64,000 bases of DNA, taken from Amycolatopsis methanolica 239. Its GTDB lineage: Bacteria; Actinomycetota; Actinomycetes; Mycobacteriales; Pseudonocardiaceae. The stretch's first letter is position 1. Every line of letters begins with the position of its first letter. Positions 1-9,171 of the stretch are shown piece by piece. The notes below the pieces were generated by a model. The model saw only the letters and a list, made by a program, of their open reading frames with translations, did no database searches and had not been told where the DNA came from. The stretch is from positions 3,100,001 to 3,164,000 of the forward strand of contig NZ_CP009110.1 of NCBI RefSeq assembly GCF_000739085.1, read 5' to 3'. Both the position numbers and the translations under genes were made by a program.

Positions 1-428
1 ACCGGGAAGCGCTCGCCGAGGGCTTCGCGCGCCCGGGCGCCCGGCACACGCAGGCCGACTTCGAGGTGGCCGCCTCGGTGCCGGTCATCGTGCACGACGA
101 CGTGGAGACCGCGGCCGGGTTCATCAAGCCGTCGCTGGCGCTCTACATCGGCGGCATGGGCGCCAAGCAGGTCAACTTCCACAAGGACGTGTTCGCCCGG
201 CTCGGGTACGCCGACGTCGCGGAGAAGGTGCAGGAGCTCTACCTCGCCGGGCGCAAGGACGAAGCCACCGCGGCGATCCCCACGTCGCTGGTCGAGGACA
301 CCTCGCTGATCGGGCCGCCGGAGAAGATCCGCGCGGAGCTCGGGGCTTGGGAGGAGACCGTGGTGACGACGCTGCTGCTGCGTGGGGATGCGGGGACATT
401 GCGGCGGGTTGCCGAGGTGTTGTCTTAG
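1..428 (+). CDS. LLM-class F420-dependent oxidoreductase, C-terminal part
   Basis: Only the last ~141 codons are in the window; the frame is open from base 3 to the TAG at 426-428. The tail reads like luciferase-like monooxygenases of the F420 class: a segment YIGGMGAKQVNFHKDVFARLGY, a helical stretch AAIPTSLVEDTSLIGPPEKIR, and a final helix. In this family the conserved GPPEKIR-type segment lies close to the C-terminus, which matches. The enzyme would transfer hydride between F420 and an unknown substrate in the cytosol. The internal GTG at 66 is not a start, because homologous-looking sequence continues upstream. The substrate cannot be told from this piece. Confidence 0.8.
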   Translation, partial: REALAEGFARPGARHTQADFEVAASVPVIVHDDVETAAGFIKPSLALYIGGMGAKQVNFHKDVFARLGYADVAEKVQELYLAGRKDEATAAIPTSLVEDTSLIGPPEKIRAELGAWEETVVTTLLLRGDAGTLRRVAEVLS

Positions 429-684: not shown

Positions 685-2694
685 ATGCCGGTGAGTCGCA
701 GGAGTGTTCTCGCCGGGGTGGCCGCCGCGCCGCTCGCCGCGGGTCTGGTGTCCACCCGCGCCGCGGCGGACCAGGGCTATCTCGTCGGCGTCGGCATCTC
801 CGACGTCACCGGGCCCGCGGCCGAGTGCGGCATGATGGGCTACTCCATGCCGCAGCAGCAGACCGCCGGCATCCACCAGCGCACCCGCGCCCGCGCCTAT
901 ATCGTCGCGGAATCCGGTGGCCGCCGGATCGTGTTCGTCAACGCCGACGTCGGCGCGTTGTTCCAGTCCGTGCACCAGGGCGTGCTCGCCCGGCTCGCCC
1001 AGCGGTACGGCGACCTCTACACCGAGCAGAACGTGCTGCTCAACGCCACGCACACGCACGCGGGCTGCGGCGGATCGTCCTGGTACGCCGCGTACAACCT
1101 GTCCATCCTGGGCTTCCAGCGGCAGGCCTACGACGCCCAGGTCGACGGCATCACCGAGGCCATCCAGCAAGCGCACGACAACCTCGCGCCGGGCACGATC
1201 AGCCTCGGCCGGACCGAGCTCACCGACGCCAGCGTCAACCGCTCCCGCACCGCCTTCGAGCTCAACCCGCAGGCCGACAAGGACCACTTCCCGCTCGCCA
1301 TCGACCCGGCCGTCACCGTGCTGCGGTTCCGGCAGGGCGGCCGCGACATCGGCGCCATCGCCTGGTTCGCCACCCACGGCACCTCGATGACCAACGCGAA
1401 CAAGCTGATCAGCGGCGACAACAAGGGCTACGCCGCCTACGCGTGGGAACACGGCCGCGGCACCCGCTACCTCGACGGCGCACCGGAGTTCGTCGCCTGC
1501 TTCCCGCAGACCAACTCCGGCGACATGTCCCCGAACCTCAACCTCAAGCCCGGCTCCGGCCCCACCGAGGACGAGTTCGAGAACACCCGCATCATCGGCG
1601 AACGCCAGTTCACCGCCGCGAAGGCCGCCTTCGACAACGCCACCACAGCCGTCACGGGACCGCTCGACTTCCGCTTCTGCTACGTGGACATGTCCCGCGT
1701 GACCGTGGACGGCCGGTACACCCCGGACGGACGGCAGCGCACCACGGCCACCGCCGCGATCGGCGTGTCGATGCTCGCCGGCAGCACCGAGGACGGCCCC
1801 GGGCTCCCGCTGCCCGAGGGTGTCCGCAACCCCTTCATCGACGCGCTCGGCGGCATGGACGCGCCGATCCCGCAGGCGCTGGCCGACGCGCACGCGCCGA
1901 AGGTGATCGCGGTGCCGTTCGGCGCCATGAAGCCCTACCCGTGGGCGCCTGAGGTGCTGCCGCTGCAGATCCTGCGGCTCGGGCAGCTCCACCTCGTCGC
2001 CGGGCCCGCCGAGTACACGATCGTCGCCGGGCTGCGCATCCGCCGCACCGTCGCCGCCGAGCTGGGCGTGCCGCTGGAGAACGTGATCATGCAGGGCTAC
2101 GCCAACGCCTACAGCCAGTACGTGACCACGCCCGAGGAGTACGACTCGCAGCAGTACGAGGGCGCGTCCACGCTCTTCGGCCGCCACACGCTGCCCGCCT
2201 ACCAGCAGGAGTTCGCCCGGCTCGCGGCCGCGATGCGGGCAGGCACGAGCGTCGCGCGCGGCCCGCAGCCGCGCGACCTGTCCGGCGACCAGCTCAACTT
2301 CCAGCCCGGCGTGGTGGTGGACTCGCCACCAGTGCTGAAGAGGTTCGGCGACGTGCTCACCGAGGCGCGTAGCAGCTACCGCCGGGGCGAGCAGGTGCTG
2401 GTCGAGTTCGTGACCGGCCACCCGAAGAACGACCTGCACCGGAACGGGACGTTCCTGGAGGTCCAGCGCCTGGACGGCGGCACCTGGGTCCGGCACGCCG
2501 ACGACGGCGACTGGGCCACCAAGTACCGGTGGCGGCGTACCTTCCTGGCCGAGTCCACGGCGACGATCACCTGGGACATACCGGCGGACACCCCGGTTGG
2601 CAAGTACCGGGTGGTCCACTCCGGCGACGCGAAGTCCCTGGACGGCACGATCACGCCCTTCACCGGCGCCTCCCGCGCGTTCGTCGTCTCATAA
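685..2694 (+). CDS. Neutral/alkaline ceramidase, exported by a Tat-type signal
   Basis: Predicted to hydrolyse ceramide to sphingosine and fatty acid outside the cytoplasm. About 669 residues, close to the family norm. The N-terminus has a twin-arginine signal (SRRSVLAG, then a hydrophobic stretch ending ARAAA). The family N-terminal signature GISDVTGPAAECGMMGYS follows. NATHTHAGCGG (His 123 and 125) fits the zinc site and NSGDMSPN (Ser 282) is the catalytic serine motif of neutral ceramidases; a C-terminal Ig-like region ends the protein. The start at 685 is chosen over an ATG at 649 because GGAGGGAGGG lies just before it and the signal peptide then begins correctly. It heads a same-strand group with a permease and an S1P-lyase-like enzyme. 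The 256 bases before it show no gene. Confidence 0.9.
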   Translation: MPVSRRSVLAGVAAAPLAAGLVSTRAAADQGYLVGVGISDVTGPAAECGMMGYSMPQQQTAGIHQRTRARAYIVAESGGRRIVFVNADVGALFQSVHQGVLARLAQRYGDLYTEQNVLLNATHTHAGCGGSSWYAAYNLSILGFQRQAYDAQVDGITEAIQQAHDNLAPGTISLGRTELTDASVNRSRTAFELNPQADKDHFPLAIDPAVTVLRFRQGGRDIGAIAWFATHGTSMTNANKLISGDNKGYAAYAWEHGRGTRYLDGAPEFVACFPQTNSGDMSPNLNLKPGSGPTEDEFENTRIIGERQFTAAKAAFDNATTAVTGPLDFRFCYVDMSRVTVDGRYTPDGRQRTTATAAIGVSMLAGSTEDGPGLPLPEGVRNPFIDALGGMDAPIPQALADAHAPKVIAVPFGAMKPYPWAPEVLPLQILRLGQLHLVAGPAEYTIVAGLRIRRTVAAELGVPLENVIMQGYANAYSQYVTTPEEYDSQQYEGASTLFGRHTLPAYQQEFARLAAAMRAGTSVARGPQPRDLSGDQLNFQPGVVVDSPPVLKRFGDVLTEARSSYRRGEQVLVEFVTGHPKNDLHRNGTFLEVQRLDGGTWVRHADDGDWATKYRWRRTFLAESTATITWDIPADTPVGKYRVVHSGDAKSLDGTITPFTGASRAFVVS

Positions 2695-2773
2695 CGAATT
2701 CGCGCCCCGGGCGCTCCCCGGGCCGTGATCGATGACACGATGCGGGCGATCACCGGGTGCAGATCGGAGGACC

Positions 2774-4075
2774 ATGGTCGCCCTACCGGCCAAGACCAGG
2801 CTCGGATACTCCGCCGGGTCGTTCGTCACCGGCGCGTTCGGCACGGTGCCCGGCCTGCTGCTGTTGCCCTACCTCACCGACACGATGGCGGTGCCGGGCG
2901 CGGTCGCCGGGGCCATCGTGCTCGTGCCGAAGGCGTGGGACGTCGTGTTCAACCCGGTCGCCGGGCGGCTGTCCGACACGAGCCTGAACCGCCGGGGGAG
3001 CAGGCGGCCGTTCCTGCTGTCCGGCGGGCTCGGGGTCGCGGTGCTGTTCGCCGCGATCTTCGCCCACCCCGGGTTCGGCAGCACCCCGCTGGACGCTGGG
3101 TACGTGGTGCTCGCGTTCTTCCTGTGCGCCACCGCGTTCGCCTTCTTTCAGGTGCCCTACAACGCGCTGCCCGCCGAGCTGACCGGCAACTACGACGAGC
3201 GCACCCGCCTGACCAGCTGGCGCATCGGCCTGCTCGCGATCGCGATCCTGGTCTCCGGCGGCGGCGCCCCCGAGATCACCAACCAGATCGGCGGGGTCAG
3301 CGGCTACCGGGTCATGGGCATCGTGATGGGCGCGATCATGGTGCTCGGCACCATCGCGGTGTTCCTCGGCACCCGGGGGGCGCCGGTCGGCAACCTGCGC
3401 CCGCCGACGCCGGGCTGGCGTGAGCTGCTCGCCACGATGCGCCAGTGGCGCGCCTTCCGCTGGCTACTGGGCGTCTACTTCGTCCAGTCGCTCGGCCTGG
3501 CCACCCTGCTCGCCGGGGTCAACTACGCGTCCCGGTACGTGTTCGGCGACGCGGACCTGCAGACCTACCTCTTCGTCGGGTTCGTGCTGCCCGCGCTGGT
3601 CACCATGCCGCTGTGGCCACGCATCGGCGCGCGCTGGGGCAAGCTGGCCGGCTTCCGGTTCGCCTGCATCGCCTTCGGCGTCGCGTGCGCGGGCCTGTGC
3701 GCGGCGCTGGTGCTGCCGGTCGGCGTGTCGTTCGTGTTCGTCGCGCTCGCCGGCGTCGGCTACGCCGGGATCCAGGTGTTCCCGCTGGCGATCCTGCCCG
3801 ACCTGATCAGCGCCGAGGAGGAGCGCACCGGCGCCACCCGCGCGGGCATCACCGCCGGGGTGTGGACCGCGTCGGAGACGCTCGGCCTGGCGCTGGGACC
3901 GGGCCTGTTCGGGCTGGTGCTGACCGCGGGTGGATACGTGTCCAGTGTGGACGCCTCCGCGGCCCAGCCGGACAGCGCGGTCACCGCGATCCTGCTCGGG
4001 TTCGCGTTGCTGCCCGGGATCCTCGTGCTGGCCGGCCTGCCGTTGCTGCGCCGCTCGATCCTGGAGCCGCGATGA
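2774..4075 (+). CDS. MFS permease of the GPH/MelB type, MFSD2-like
   Basis: A 433-residue, roughly 12-helix membrane protein. The cytoplasmic loop after helix 2, with DVVFNPVAGRLSDTS and GSRRPF, is the hallmark of the glycoside-pentoside-hexuronide (GPH) branch of the major facilitator superfamily. That branch also contains the eukaryotic MFSD2A (lysolipid) and MFSD2B (sphingosine-1-phosphate) carriers. The start at 2774 follows GGAGG and is the first codon that begins with the usual short cytoplasmic segment. The stop codon TGA (4073-4075) overlaps an ATG at 4072, so translation is coupled to the next gene. Lying between a ceramidase and an S1P-lyase-like gene, it may carry a sphingoid base or breakdown product. 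This is inference; a sugar substrate is equally allowed by the family. Confidence 0.8.
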   Translation: MVALPAKTRLGYSAGSFVTGAFGTVPGLLLLPYLTDTMAVPGAVAGAIVLVPKAWDVVFNPVAGRLSDTSLNRRGSRRPFLLSGGLGVAVLFAAIFAHPGFGSTPLDAGYVVLAFFLCATAFAFFQVPYNALPAELTGNYDERTRLTSWRIGLLAIAILVSGGGAPEITNQIGGVSGYRVMGIVMGAIMVLGTIAVFLGTRGAPVGNLRPPTPGWRELLATMRQWRAFRWLLGVYFVQSLGLATLLAGVNYASRYVFGDADLQTYLFVGFVLPALVTMPLWPRIGARWGKLAGFRFACIAFGVACAGLCAALVLPVGVSFVFVALAGVGYAGIQVFPLAILPDLISAEEERTGATRAGITAGVWTASETLGLALGPGLFGLVLTAGGYVSSVDASAAQPDSAVTAILLGFALLPGILVLAGLPLLRRSILEPR

Positions 4076-5492
4076 GGCCCGCCCGCGAGGTGCTCGCCAG
4101 CTGCGGGAGCTGCGCGCCGGCGACCTGCCCACGCACGGCGGCCGCACCCTGGCCTACGTCTACGACAGCGGACTGTCCGGTGTGGACGAACTGGCCGCGC
4201 AGGCGCACGCGCTCGCCTCCTCCGCCAACGGCCTCGACCCGACCGCGTTCCCCAGCCTGCGCCGCCTGGAGAACGACCTGGTCGCCGCCACCGCGCGCCT
4301 GGTCAGCGGCGCCCCGTCCACGGTCGGCGCGGTGACCTCCGGCGGCACCGAGTCGTGCCTGCTCGCGGTGCTCGCGGCGCGCGAGGGTCGCCCCGATGTC
4401 GCCGAGCCGAGCATGGTGCTGCCCTCGACCGTGCACGCCGCGTTCCACAAGGCCGCGCGCCTGTTCCGGGTGCGGCCGGTCGTGGTGCCGGTCGACCCGG
4501 TGACCTTCCGCGCCGACCCGGACGCCATGGCCGCCGCGATCGACGACACGACGGTGCTCGTCGTCGCCAGCGCTCCGTCCTACGCGCACGGCGTGATCGA
4601 CCCGGTCGCGCCGGTCGCCGCCGCGGCCGCGGCGCGGGGCGTGCGCATGCACGTGGACGCCTGCATCGGCGGCTGGGTCCTGCCGTACTTCCGCCGCCTC
4701 GGCACGCCGGTGCCCGAGTTCGGGTTCGGCGTCGAGGGCGTCACGAGCGTCTCGGTCGACCTGCACAAATACGCGTACTGCCCGAAGGGCGTGTCGGTGC
4801 TGTTGCACGCCGACGCCGGGCTGCGGCGCGGGCACTACTTCGCCAGCGCGGACTGGCCCGGCTACACGATGCTCAACAGCACCATCCAGTCCACCCGTTC
4901 CGGCGGCCCGCTCGCCGCCGCGTGGGCTGTGGTGCAGCACCTCGGCGACGACGGATACCTGGAACTCGCCCGGCAGACGCTGGCCGCGGTGACGGCCGTC
5001 GCCGACGGCATCCGGAGCATCGACGGCCTGCGGCTGCTCGCCGAACCGGACTCGACCCTGATCGCGCTCACCGCCGACGACGACAGCTTCGACCTGTTCA
5101 CCGTCGCCGACGAGATGCGGGTCCGCGGCTGGTACGTGCAGCCGCAGTTCGCCCACGGGTCCTCGCCGGTGAACCTGCACCTCACCGTCACCCCCGCGAA
5201 CCGGGGCGGCGAGGAGGGGTTCCTCGCCGACCTCGCCGCCTCGGTCGCCGCCGCCCGGGAGACCGGGCCGGTGACGGTGGACGAGAACGTGGCCGCGTTC
5301 GTCGCCGCCCTCGACCCGGACGCGCTGACCGGCGAGCGGTTCGAAGGCCTGCTCACCGCCGCCGGCCTGGGCGGCGGCGCGGGACTGCCGGACCGGATGG
5401 CCGGGATCAACGCCCTGCTCGGCGCCGCCACCCCGGCCCTGCGGGAACGGCTGCTGCGCGAGTTCCTCGGGATGCTCTACCGGCCGGACTAG
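4072..5492 (+). CDS. Sphingosine-1-phosphate-lyase-like PLP decarboxylase, apparent N-terminal frameshift
   Basis: Group II PLP-dependent lyase most like S1P lyase (Dpl1 type), which splits sphingosine 1-phosphate into a fatty aldehyde and phosphoethanolamine. Visible motifs are SGGTESCLLAV (cofactor binding), VDACIGGWVLPYF, the PLP lysine in VDLHKYAYCPKG (codon at 4767), and HYFASADWPGY followed by STRSGGPLAAAW, an order typical of S1P lyases. The natural start is the ATG at 4072, overlapping the permease stop, giving MRPAREVLA. The rest of the protein (QLRELRAGDLPTHGG onward) is in the next frame. One extra C near 4100-4103 would join both parts into a ~473-residue enzyme. As written, no good start codon precedes the conserved region. 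Ends convergently with the GTPase gene (4-nt overlap). Confidence 0.75.
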
Positions 5493-6544
5493 TGCGCCGC
5501 GTGGTCGTGCAGCTCCCACGCCGGGAACGGGTCCGGGCCGGTCTCCTCGCCCAGGCAGCTCTCCAGTGCGGCCGTCAGCGCCGCGTGGTCCAGGCCCGTC
5601 CCGATGAACACCAGCTCCTGCCGCGCCGGCCCGCTGCCCTGCGGTTCGAACCGCGCCACCGAACCGGCCTGCGACCACAGGCCCACCACACCCGGGCGGG
5701 ACGCCAGCGCGAAGAACCCCTTGGAGCGCAGCACCTTCCCGAACCGGCCGGAGTCCAGGTCCCGCGTCACGAACGACCACAGCCGCTCCGGCGCGAACGG
5801 CCGCGAGGCCCGGAACACGACGCTGGAGATGCCGTACTCCTCGGTCTCCGGCACGTGGTCGCCGTTCAGCTCCGCCACCCAGCCGGGCGCCTGCTGGGCC
5901 CGCTCCAGGTCGTAACGGCCGGTCCCGAGCACCTCCCGCACCGGCACCTTCCCGAAGCTGGCGCGGATCACCTCCGCCGCCGGGTTCAGCCGCCGCAGCA
6001 GCGCCTCCAGCCGGACCAGCTCGTCCTCGCCGACGAGGTCGGTCTTGTTCAGCAGCAGTACGTCGGCGAACTCGACCTGGTCGATCAGCAGGTCGCTGAC
6101 CGTCCGCTCGTCACCCTCGTACTGGTCCAGCGCCCGCGCGGCCAGTTCGTCGCCGCGGTCCAGCTCGCGGGTGAAGTTCACCGCGTCCACCACGGTCACC
6201 ATGGTGTCCAGCCGCGCCCGCGGCAGGACGGTGAAGGTCGCGGCGACCGGCATCGGCTCGGAGATCCCGCTCGACTCGATCAGCACGTGGTCGAACCGGC
6301 CCTCGTCGCAGAGCCGGCCCACCTCCTCCAGCAGGTCGTCCCGCAGGGTGCAGCAGATGCACCCGTTGGTCATCTCGACCAGCCGCTCTCGCGTGCGGAC
6401 GAGCGCGGCGTCGATGTTGACCTCGCTCATGTCGTTGACGATCACCGCGACCCGCGCGCCGCCGGTGTCGCCCAGCACGTGGTTGAGCAGCGTCGTCTTG
6501 CCCGCGCCGAGGAACCCGGACAGGACCGTGACCGGGAGCGTCAC
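5489..6544 (-). CDS. COG0523/CobW-family GTPase, probable zinc chaperone
   Basis: About 351 residues. N-terminal Walker [10 protein letters not shown] near residue 10, metal-binding [14 protein letters not shown] around residue 65 (the CxCC motif of this family), nucleotide motif [10 protein letters not shown], and a C-terminal CobW_C region ending in a His-rich tail (WELHDHAAH). Such G3E GTPases move metal to client proteins, and members inside Zur regulons serve zinc. The GTG start overlaps the stop of the L32 gene by 4 nt (GTGA), and the gene is the last of a four-gene operon of zinc-starvation genes, which strongly suggests a zinc role. Upstream in-frame sequence as far as 6643 is antisense noise. 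Confidence 0.88.
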
Positions 6545-6699
6545 CGCGCCAGCCGGTGGAAGTGGCCGAGCAGCCTGCGCGGCACGAGCTGCTCCTTGCC
6601 GTCGATCACCACCGGCACCAGGTCGGGCTTCACGGCCTTCCACTGGGCGCGGCGGTGGCGGGTGTTGCTGCGCGAGGTCTTGCGCTTGGGAACGGCCAT
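6541..6699 (-). CDS. rpmF: Ribosomal protein L32, zinc-free paralogue
   Basis: A 52-residue protein beginning [20 protein letters not shown], the L32 N-terminus. The C-terminal half, where zinc-binding L32 proteins carry two CxxC pairs, instead reads [22 protein letters not shown] and has no cysteine. It is therefore a C-minus form that can replace zinc-L32 when zinc is short. ATG overlaps the L31 stop (TGATG) and its own stop overlaps the GTPase start, so it is translationally coupled on both sides. It is shorter than most annotated genes and easily missed. Confidence 0.9.
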
Positions 6700-6947
6700 C
6701 ACTTCCGCCTTCCGTAGCGGCGGTGGAACTTCTCCACCTGGCCCGCGGTGTCCATGATCCGGCGCGCGCCCGTCCAGAACGGGTGCGACCACGCGCTGAC
6801 GTCGACGAGCACGAGCGGGTAGGTGTTGCCGTCGCTCCACTCGATCGTCTTGTCCGAGGTGATCGTCGAGCGCGTCAGGAACGCGTCGCCGGTCGCGGTG
6901 TCCTGGAACACCACGGGGTGGTAGTCGGGATGGATGCCCGGTTTCAC
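6699..6947 (-). CDS. rpmE2: Ribosomal protein L31 type B (zinc-independent)
   Basis: 82 residues. The start [17 protein letters not shown] and FLTRSTITS are diagnostic of L31 type B, and there is no CxxC zinc site. It replaces the zinc-binding L31 in the 50S subunit during zinc limitation. The GTG start at 6947 is preceded by GGAG on the minus strand and overlaps the stop of the upstream MRF-like gene by 4 nt (GTGA). Longer upstream reading in this frame is antisense to nothing conserved. Confidence 0.93.
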
Positions 6948-8170
6948 TGCTTCTCCGTTCCGGACGTGACGTTCACGTCCTGCGTCTCGTCGGTGTCTTC
7001 GCACGGTTCCTCGTGCCAGGCGCCGAACGGGTCCTCGTAGGTCAGCCACTCCCGCTGCCCGGCCGCGAGCTCGGCGTCGGTGAGCAGCGCCCCGGACAGG
7101 GCTTCGTCGATCTCGGCCGGCGTGGCCTGATCGGTGACGACGAAGATCTCCGAGGCTCGGTCGCCGAACACCGGGTGCCAGCGCAGCGACGCCAGCGTCC
7201 GCCGCTCAGGCGACACGTCCGTCCACGCCGGACCGTCCGGCGCGTCCAGCCACGGCCCGGCGTGCCCGACACCGAGGCCGCCGCCCGCCGACTCCAGCCA
7301 CAGCGCCATGTCCGGCTGGCTGGCCACCCACACCCGGCCGCGGGTCCGCACCACCCCGTCGAGCAGCACGTCGAGCGCGTCGTGCAGGCGTTCCGGGTGG
7401 AAGGGGCGCTGCGCGGTGAACAGCAGCGTCGCCACCCCGCAGTCGGCACCCAGCGGCGGCTCGCCGTGCAGCAGCGGGCCGTGCATGTCGGTCACCTCGC
7501 CGCGCCGCGCGTCCGGCGGCACGTCGGCCAGGCGCGTGGTGCGCAAGGCCGCGGGGGCGACCCGGTCGAGGACGGCCGCGGTCTTCGCGTCGGTCCAGGC
7601 GTCGGCCGTGCCGGTCAGCACGAGCACGTCGGCGAACTCGGCCTGGGACAACGCGACCTGCGCGACCGTCCGCTCGTCGTCCTGACTGGCCTGCAGCCCG
7701 CGCTCCGCCAGGGTGTCGTCGCCGGTCGCGTCGGCCAGCCAGGAGCCGCGGTCCAGCACCGTGTGCACGCCGTCGATCGCCACGAAGTCGATCACCGGCC
7801 GGTCGCCGACGAGGACGTGCCTGATCGCCCAGCAGACCGGTTCCGGCTCCATCGCCTCGTCCAGCCGCACCACGATGTGCCGCACGCCGGGCGTGCCGGC
7901 GAGGCGGCGCAGCAGGGGGAGCAGGTCCTCCCGCAGCGTGCAGGACACGCAGCCGTGCGCGAGTTCCAGGACGGTCGTCTCGTCGCGGTCGTCCAGCTGG
8001 AGCCGCCGCCGCACGACGCCGCCGCGGATCTCGCGCAGGTCGTGGTGCACGACCGCGGTGCCGGGCCGGGCCGCGCGGACCTCTTCGGCGAGGTCCGCGG
8101 TCGCCGCGGGGACGAGGCCGCTGATCAGGGTGAGGGGCACCCGGGTGGTGCCGGTCGTTTCGGGATCCAC
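6944..8170 (-). CDS. mrf: MRF-like CobW-family protein (ribosome hibernation recruitment factor), degenerate P-loop
   Basis: A 408-residue relative of the CobW family that resembles mycobacterial Rv0106/MSMEG_6069, the MPY recruitment factor, which acts in zinc-starvation ribosome hibernation. It keeps [21 protein letters not shown], the [20 protein letters not shown] segment, [25 protein letters not shown] and a C-terminal [11 protein letters not shown]. Where the sister GTPase has GxxGxGKTT, this protein has [15 protein letters not shown], so the Walker A lysine is missing and ordinary GTP hydrolysis is unlikely. First gene of the leftward operon, 50 bp from the divergent rpmB2 start with a Zur-like box between. 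The assignment rests on remembered family sequence. Confidence 0.82.
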
Positions 8171-8185
8171 GCGTTGTAGAGTAGG

Positions 8186-8206
8186 TGATAATGAAAATCG
8201 ATACCA
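8186..8206. promoter_or_regulatory. Candidate Zur box in the divergent promoter
   Basis: An AT-rich, imperfect 21-bp palindrome (left half TGATAATGAAAATC, right arm CGATACCA) in otherwise GC-rich DNA. It resembles actinobacterial Zur sites built on TGAAAATnATTTTCA. It sits in a 50-bp gap between the starts of mrf (8170) and rpmB2 (8221), so one repressor dimer could shut both promoters. The rpmB2 ribosome site GGGAGGG follows at 8211-8217. All flanking genes are zinc-starvation genes, which supports Zur over other Fur-family regulators. Right-half matches are weak. Confidence 0.7.
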
Positions 8207-8220
8207 ACTAGGGAGGGTGG

Positions 8221-8457
8221 ATGTCGTCGGTCTGCCAGGTCACCGGCCGCAAGCCGGGCTTCGGCAAGCAGGTGTCCCATTCGCACCGGCGGACGTCGCG
8301 GCGGTGGGATCCGAACGTCCAGCGGCGGCGCTACTGGGTGCCGTCCGAGGGGCGCTGGGTCACGCTGCGGGTCTCGGCGAAGGGGATCAAGACGATCGAC
8401 AAGCGCGGGATCGACGCCGTCGTGGCCGAACTGCGCGCGAAGGGGGTGAAGCTGTAG
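8221..8457 (+). CDS. rpmB2: Ribosomal protein L28, zinc-free paralogue
   Basis: 78 residues with the L28 core [21 protein letters not shown]. Only one cysteine remains (SSVCQVTG), where zinc-binding L28 carries CxxC pairs, so this is the C-minus form. First gene of the rightward Zur-controlled operon rpmB2-rpmG2-rpsN2-rpsR2. The last base of its TAG (8455-8457) is the first base of the next gene. Confidence 0.93.
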
Positions 8458-8621
8458 TGGCCCGCAACGACGTCCGGCCGATCATCAAGCTCCGCTCGAC
8501 CGCGGGGACCGGCTACACGTACGTGACCAGGAAGAACCGGCGCAACGACCCGGATCGGATGGTGCTGCGCAAGTTCGACCCGGTGGTGCGCCGCCACGTC
8601 GAGTTCCGGGAGGAGCGCTGA
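8457..8621 (+). CDS. rpmG2: Ribosomal protein L33, zinc-free paralogue
   Basis: 54 residues ([21 protein letters not shown], then [11 protein letters not shown] and [14 protein letters not shown]), a full L33 without any cysteine. GTG at 8457 overlaps the L28 stop by one base, and its TGA overlaps the S14 ATG by one base (TGATG). Replaces zinc-L33 in the large subunit during zinc shortage. Confidence 0.93.
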
Positions 8622-8926
8622 TGGCGAAGAAGTCGAAGATCGCCCGCAACGAGCAGCGGCGCGCCGTCGTGGCCCGCTACGCCGAGCGCCGGGCCGAGCT
8701 GAAGGCGGTGGTGTCCTCGCCGCAGTCCACTTCGGACGAGCGGGCGGCCGCGGTGGTGGCGTTGCAGAAGCTGCCCCGCGACGCCAGCCCCACGCGGCTG
8801 CGCAACCGCGACACCGCCGACGGCCGCCCGCGCGGCTACTTCCGCAAGTTCGGGCTGTCCCGGGTGCGACTGCGCGAGATGGCCCACCGCGGCGAGCTGC
8901 CCGGCGTGTCGAAGTCGAGCTGGTGA
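8621..8926 (+). CDS. rpsN2: Ribosomal protein S14, long zinc-free form
   Basis: 101 residues, the long S14 type that lacks the CxxC-x-CxxC site of the short zinc form. It starts [20 protein letters not shown] and ends in the S14 signature [30 protein letters not shown]. Third gene of the zinc-starvation operon; its stop overlaps the rpsR2 GTG by 3 nt. Confidence 0.94.
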
Positions 8927-9171
8927 GCGCCGTGCCCAAGTACGTCAAGGACCGGCCCGGCCGCCGACGCCGCAACCTGCTCGCCGAGGCGGACGTGTCC
9001 GTTGTGGACTGGAAGGACGTGGACCTGCTGCGCAAGTTCATCTCCGACCGGGGCAAGATCCGCGCCCGGCGGGTGACGGGCTTGTCGCCGACGCAGCAGA
9101 AGCAGGTGGCCCAGGCCATCAAGAACGCGCGCGAGATGGCTCTGCTGCCGTATCCCTCGTCGGCGCGCTGA
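8923..9171 (+). CDS. rpsR2: Ribosomal protein S18, zinc-free paralogue
   Basis: 82 residues with the S18 core [32 protein letters not shown] and [12 protein letters not shown]. The N-terminal cysteines of zinc-S18 are absent (the tail reads [18 protein letters not shown]). GTG start inside the rpsN2 stop (GTGA). Last gene of the rightward operon, followed at once by a strong hairpin. Confidence 0.93.

Follow-up and report, generated by a model that had tools for sequence, protein, structure and literature searches.

The window analysed here, 64,000 nucleotides of Amycolatopsis methanolica 239 (positions 3100001-3164000 of a single 7,237,391-base contig), carries at its left end three consecutive plus-strand genes for a neutral ceramidase, a GPH-type permease and a pyridoxal phosphate (PLP) enzyme with the fold of the sphingosine-1-phosphate (S1P) lyases. 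In the classical end of sphingolipid breakdown, the sphingoid base is phosphorylated and the S1P is then cut. We found that the permease and the lyase-fold enzyme form a widely kept unit, and that the permease-linked enzymes all carry an acidic residue at a position where S1P lyases contact the phosphate of the substrate. We tentatively propose, as a possibility that we favour without great confidence, that the cassette frees sphingoid bases outside the cell, imports them and splits them without a kinase step.

An earlier annotation made from the letters alone (the sequence-only reading) had described three same-strand genes at this place, and our translations showed all three open reading frames on the plus strand. 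The features are listed below, with residues numbered as in StSPL, the S1P lyase of S. thermophilum.

685..2694, plus strand: neutral/alkaline ceramidase, 669 amino acids, with a Tat-like signal (SRRSVLAG...); from the translation, PF04734 and PF17048, and PDB 2zws
2774..4075, plus strand: GPH/MFS_2 permease, 433 amino acids; PF13347, with TIGR00792 gph under its cut-off
4072..5492, plus strand: PLP enzyme of S1P-lyase fold; start inferred from the nearest relatives, body frame that of 4071-5492
4097..4098, plus strand: C run with one base fewer than in a 95%-identical relative (comparison with locus L067; intact 473-residue proteins P0005 and P0006)
4155..4157, plus strand: Tyr at the StSPL Ala103 position, substrate-phosphate pocket (profile alignment; role from PMC6148460, Table 3)
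4236..4238, plus strand: Asp at the StSPL His129 position, substrate-phosphate pocket (locally ungapped alignment)
4767..4769, plus strand: PLP lysine, StSPL Lys311 (alignment to StSPL)
4785..4787, plus strand: equivalent of StSPL Lys317, kept (alignment to StSPL)

A permease-lyase pair with a changed phosphate pocket

The PLP enzyme matched PF00282 at 65.8 bits in the Pfam search, and its nearest PDB chains were S1P lyases (StSPL at 1.5e-76, compared to 2.2e-21 for MfnA and 7.8e-17 for Gad). A structure model of an intact relative (P0004) showed the S1P-lyase fold over the full chain including the C-terminal part, and S1P lyases outscored decarboxylases by far in sequence; in structure they did so too, except for the LpSPL chain, which is modelled only in part. 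Both motifs from which an S1P-lyase-like enzyme had been read, VDLHKYAYCPKG and HYFASADWPGY, were found in the translation, and in the sequence and structure comparisons the enzyme did not group with glutamate or tyrosine decarboxylases. The catalytic and cofactor residues were all kept in the window lyase (PLP Lys311, His310, Asp274, Cys276, His201 and Gly168/Thr169).

The substrate-phosphate pocket was changed at two positions. The phosphate residue of S1P lyases, His129 (or Gln), was Asp in the window lyase, and Ala/Thr103 was Tyr, an assignment made slightly less sure by one extra residue between positions 105 and 126. To place these changes, we used an order-level sample of 298 genomes, in which 119 matched the lyase family, 115 the permease and 68 the ceramidase at the cut-offs used, and a class-level sample of 394 genomes with 109 matching. 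Lyase-flanking stretches of up to 18 kb were fetched from 80 of the other 118 matching order genomes and 40 lyase stretches from 39 of the matching class genomes, for a total of 121 lyase-family loci from the whole-protein search, window included. Asp took the place of His129 in 101 of the 121 loci. Asp129 and Tyr103 occurred together in 90/90 permease-linked lyases, which formed one tree group separate from the S. thermophilum enzyme. At the position of Tyr482 (substrate entry), in a stretch that aligns weakly to StSPL, Tyr was found in 0/52 and Asn in 34/52, with Leu, His and other residues also seen. Where S1P lyases (StSPL 3mad, human SGPL1, yeast Dpl1) have His129 and Ala103, the window type has Asp and Tyr, possibly with Asn for Tyr482, and it differs from them further by its own tree group and the adjoining GPH-type permease. 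Because the phosphate pocket is changed and the tree group is its own, we do not class the predicted window enzyme as an S1P lyase.

Of the 101 Asp129 loci, 90 have a permease of the same family on the lyase strand and no more than 400 bases away, compared to 0 of the 20 other lyase loci. Neighbour-gene clustering, done on the first fetched set of 80 loci, placed the permease directly upstream of the lyase and showed no third gene kept beside them throughout the order. It is the permease and the lyase together that are conserved as a unit, and this unit is widely kept. A pattern scan containing the Asp, which was left out of the locus counts, found named carriers in Amycolatopsis, Prauserella, Saccharothrix, Nocardioides, Micromonospora, Salinispora, Kribbella and Streptomyces; among the best 120 of 6259 matches to the lyase, the nearest named proteins came from Amycolatopsis.

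The permease matched PF13347 at 276.2 bits (cut-off 27), in agreement with the GPH type assigned earlier, and the genome gave no second MFS_2 match that was both strong and full-length. With TIGR00792 gph, the sugar:cation symporter model (MelB), it scored 184.5 bits, under the cut-off of 231.35. Its nearest solved structures were MFSD2A (56 bits) and MelB (53 bits), about equal, and the PF13347 family is common to all three. MelB has Lys18, Asp19, Asp124 and Arg149, all four of which were absent in 90/90 lyase-linked permeases. Asp55 was kept in 90/90, Thr373 in 88/90 and Thr121 in 0/90, and the position of MelB Asp59 held Asn in 81/90 and Asp in 5/90 (roles of the MelB residues in the galactoside and cation sites are from the available portion of PMC8329300). 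Since the charged sugar residues of MelB are absent from every linked permease, the window permease is unlikely to carry galactosides, which bears on the concern that it might group with sugar carriers. The parallel to MFSD2B drawn in the sequence-only reading appeared weak: MFSD2A and MelB, the sole chains available for comparison, scored alike, and MFSD2A keeps the cation-site Asp59 and Thr121, both of which the window permease lacks.

Other arrangements of these families were also seen. In two genomes, G037 and G184, the permease is present (72% and 71% identical, respectively) along with a ceramidase elsewhere, but no lyase matched at the cut-off, the permease being kept alone. A lyase type with Asn129, Leu103 and a much shorter C-terminus occurs without the permease in L132-L138, L181, L184 and L185. 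The lyases of L140-L145 have Gln129 and Thr/Ser103 and are StSPL-like in the tree; beside them are genes named by eye as FGGY-type sugar kinase (6/6) and inositol-phosphatase-like (4/6).

Ceramidase and sphingomyelinase-like genes beside the pair

The window ceramidase matched PF04734 (608.5 bits) and PF17048 (186.8 bits), each across the full model, and was the sole PF04734 match in the genome. Its closest PDB chain was the neutral ceramidase of P. aeruginosa, 2zws (1.1e-191). Its NSGDMSPN aligned with NAGNLSPN of 2zws, and the alignment matched both the serine motif NxGxxSPN and the metal-site His, Glu and Tyr segments of 2zws. The NCBIfam neutral-ceramidase equivalog NF041649 aligned along almost its whole length, at 700.6 bits, and did not reach its cut-off of 1200; we therefore assign the window ceramidase by its Pfam family and not as an NF041649 equivalog. 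The N-terminus resembles a Tat signal by eye. The exported neutral ceramidase described earlier was thus supported as to family, with its export predicted, and it would be expected to hydrolyse ceramide.

Of the 104 order genomes with an Asp-type lyase, 9 (window included) have an intact ceramidase upstream of the pair in the same orientation and one more has a remnant; an intact ceramidase was also seen there in 5 of the 80 named loci. The trio, whose co-occurrence in other genomes had been put forward as a check, was found again, with its gene order unchanged, in 9 other sampled genomes, 8 of which have an intact ceramidase and 1 a remnant, but it is not a general unit, ceramidase and lyase being unassociated across the 298 genomes (odds ratio 1.02). 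The ceramidase was probably added to the pair in a few lineages.

In 7 of the 9 trio loci of relatives (one of the 7 being the locus with the ceramidase remnant), a sphingomyelinase-like gene stood between the ceramidase and the permease; none was found in the window's genome. The 7 loci share one related genus code, and two named Amycolatopsis records also have an extra gene at that place. We analysed one of the seven, to which the others are 87-93% identical. Its protein belongs to the Exo_endo_phos family and has a signal-like N-terminus by eye; in NCBIfam it matched TIGR03395 sphingomyelin phosphodiesterase alone, at 127.7 bits and so short of the 248.2 cut-off, and the best solved structures were sphingomyelinases C (3.2e-32). 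This putative sphingomyelinase gene ties those operons to sphingolipids. It is mainly because predicted ceramide-making and ceramide-cutting genes have joined the pair that we believe the pair may handle what the ceramidase frees.

In the remnant locus, L078 (genome G168), only the end of the ceramidase is left (residues 549-669 match), beside the sphingomyelinase-like gene, the permease and the lyase.

A proposed kinase-free route and its alternatives

In the proposed route, the predicted exported ceramidase would cut ceramide to a fatty acid and a sphingoid base; in some Amycolatopsis relatives, the sphingomyelinase-like gene of the same operon would supply the ceramide. The permease would then carry the freed base into the cell. 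There the PLP enzyme, which has the fold and cofactor residues of an S1P lyase, may split the unphosphorylated base between C2 and C3 in a retro-aldol reaction, yielding a long-chain aldehyde and ethanolamine, not phosphoethanolamine. We suggest an unphosphorylated substrate because the pocket is changed, because there is no kinase gene near the pair and because a published S1P lyase cuts free sphingosine. A DAGK-like open reading frame was found in 8 of 181 loci and never within 5.6 kb of the pair in the fetched stretches. The earlier proposal that the enzyme makes phosphoethanolamine from S1P fits poorly with both the altered pocket and the lack of a nearby kinase gene.

The published enzyme is Burkholderia S1PL2021, a bacterial S1P lyase which, according to the portion of PMC5234717 available, cleaves free sphingosine at ~8% of its activity on S1P and prefers S1P. 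As in the window type, its residue 129 is not His; it has Thr103 and Gln129 (PMC6148460, table), and the window type has Tyr103 and Asp129. The sphingosine response of P. aeruginosa (ceramidase, SphR, SphBCD), as described in the available parts of PMC11893366 and PMC5150637, resembles the proposal in combining a ceramidase with sphingosine removal. It differs in that sphingosine removal there implicates a periplasmic oxidase, SphC, together with the cytochrome SphB (PMC11893366), whereas the window has a permease and a PLP enzyme that is expected to lack an export signal. Our literature searches found no paper on the permease-lyase pair or on a dedicated free-base lyase.

Several observations weigh against the kinase-free route. 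A search for a DAGK-type kinase elsewhere in the genome, as advised in the sequence-only reading, found four DAGK-domain kinases above cut-off that could phosphorylate sphingosine; their matches are to models of ordinary bacterial lipid kinases, all below cut-off, and to no model named sphingosine kinase. EutB, which would serve as an ethanolamine sink, had no match in the window's genome, and was rarer in genomes with the lyase (19/104) than in those without it (64/194; odds ratio 0.45). Rat liver S1P lyase cannot turn over sphinganine, according to a review. Position 129 varies between His and Gln among S1P lyases, and mutation of the matching yeast residue was harmful only in part (review, PMC6148460), so that a change of His129 alone need not abolish the use of S1P. 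Asn126 and Lys317 were kept in 181/181 loci and Tyr105 in 180/181, the remaining one having Phe. Eleven of the 101 Asp129 loci have no adjoining permease; in one of these the permease lies 3.2 kb upstream, and in another the lyase frame is damaged. Ceramidase was as frequent with an Asp-type lyase (24/104 genomes) as without (44/194; p 1), leaving 80 of the 104 genomes with no ceramidase. Last, the presumed start of the window lyase, ATG 4072, is as assembled out of frame with the lyase body by one base.

The ceramidase counts bear on a different reading, which we consider unlikely, in which the pair acts on some other beta-hydroxy amine or amino-lipid widespread in actinomycetes, the ceramidase of Amycolatopsis being a late and loosely related addition. 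The many lyase genomes that lack a ceramidase would be expected on this reading, as would the lack of a third gene conserved beside the pair across the order, but the presence of both a ceramidase and a sphingomyelinase-like gene in one group's operon would be difficult to account for unless a substrate line is shared. It appears quite unlikely, too, that the canonical S1P route operates here, with an unlinked DAGK-type kinase phosphorylating the base, the enzyme giving an aldehyde and phosphoethanolamine, and the pocket changes being tolerated variation. The full-length S1P-lyase fold, the retained Tyr105, Asn126 and Lys317, the four DAGK-domain genes and the natural and experimental latitude at position 129 are all consistent with it; against it are the acidic residue at the phosphate contact and the accompanying Tyr103, which every one of the 90 permease-linked loci shows, the lack of a nearby kinase gene, and the lack of any match to a sphingosine-kinase-named model among the four kinases. 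That the PLP enzyme is a decarboxylase of tyrosine, glutamate or a similar amino acid with an amino-acid permease is highly improbable: such proteins are named 'pyridoxal phosphate-dependent decarboxylase family protein' or 'aminotransferase class V-fold' in many of the best 120 of 6259 database matches (with 'sphinganine-1-phosphate aldolase' in some), and PF00282 and the MfnA model TIGR03812 do match, but TIGR03812 (176.6 bits, cut-off 299.4) and the Gad model TIGR01788 (105.3 bits, cut-off 380.4) both stayed under their curated cut-offs, S1P lyases scored far higher with the exception noted above, and the permease belongs to the MFS_2 family.

Beyond this cassette, the kinase-free route might, with more reservation than for the window, be read as that of a class-wide actinomycete lyase branch that has exchanged its phosphate pocket for one recognising the free C1 hydroxyl and has its own sphingoid-base importer, extended in Amycolatopsis to a ceramidase-sphingomyelinase-permease-lyase operon. 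If true, a free-base lyase with its own carrier would make a shorter route than the classical one, would help explain how actinomycetes might feed on, or disarm, fungal, plant and animal sphingolipids, and would give a function to a large gene set now under names such as the decarboxylase family name quoted above. Asp in place of His or Gln would also offer a natural comparison for what makes an S1P lyase need the phosphate.

Lyase reading frame and flanking genes

Beyond the permease stop, the body frame of the lyase offers no start codon (ATG, GTG or TTG) until GTG 4182, which falls past the conserved YVYD motif, within the conserved core. The upstream starts in this frame are GTGs 3930 and 3945, inside the permease. 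In L067, a relative with 95% identity, the lyase starts at an ATG overlapping the permease stop (ATGA, window 4072-4075), and L068 and L069 have the same lyase N-terminus. The window has two Cs at 4097-4098, compared to three in L067. The overlap of the last two genes in the sequence-only reading therefore holds for ATG 4072 and the permease stop, but that ATG does not share the frame of the lyase body. The offset is either an assembly slip in the C run or a real break. We regard it as doubtful that the gene is a fresh pseudogene, a question that concerns this copy only: the one-base difference does set start and body in different frames, but the remainder of the frame is uninterrupted and shares 95-96% identity with the intact 473-residue lyases of near relatives, and C runs are a common site of assembly slips.

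Upstream of the ceramidase, window 3-428 holds what by eye is the 3' end of a luciferase-like monooxygenase-type gene. Of the 80 clustered loci, 19 have a member of this family upstream of the pair, and in a few of these the ceramidase separates it from the permease. Immediately after the lyase, 5489-9171 carries two genes for CobW-type GTPases along with small paralogues of ribosomal proteins (L28, L31, L33 and S14 types by eye), with the look of a zinc-shortage cluster.
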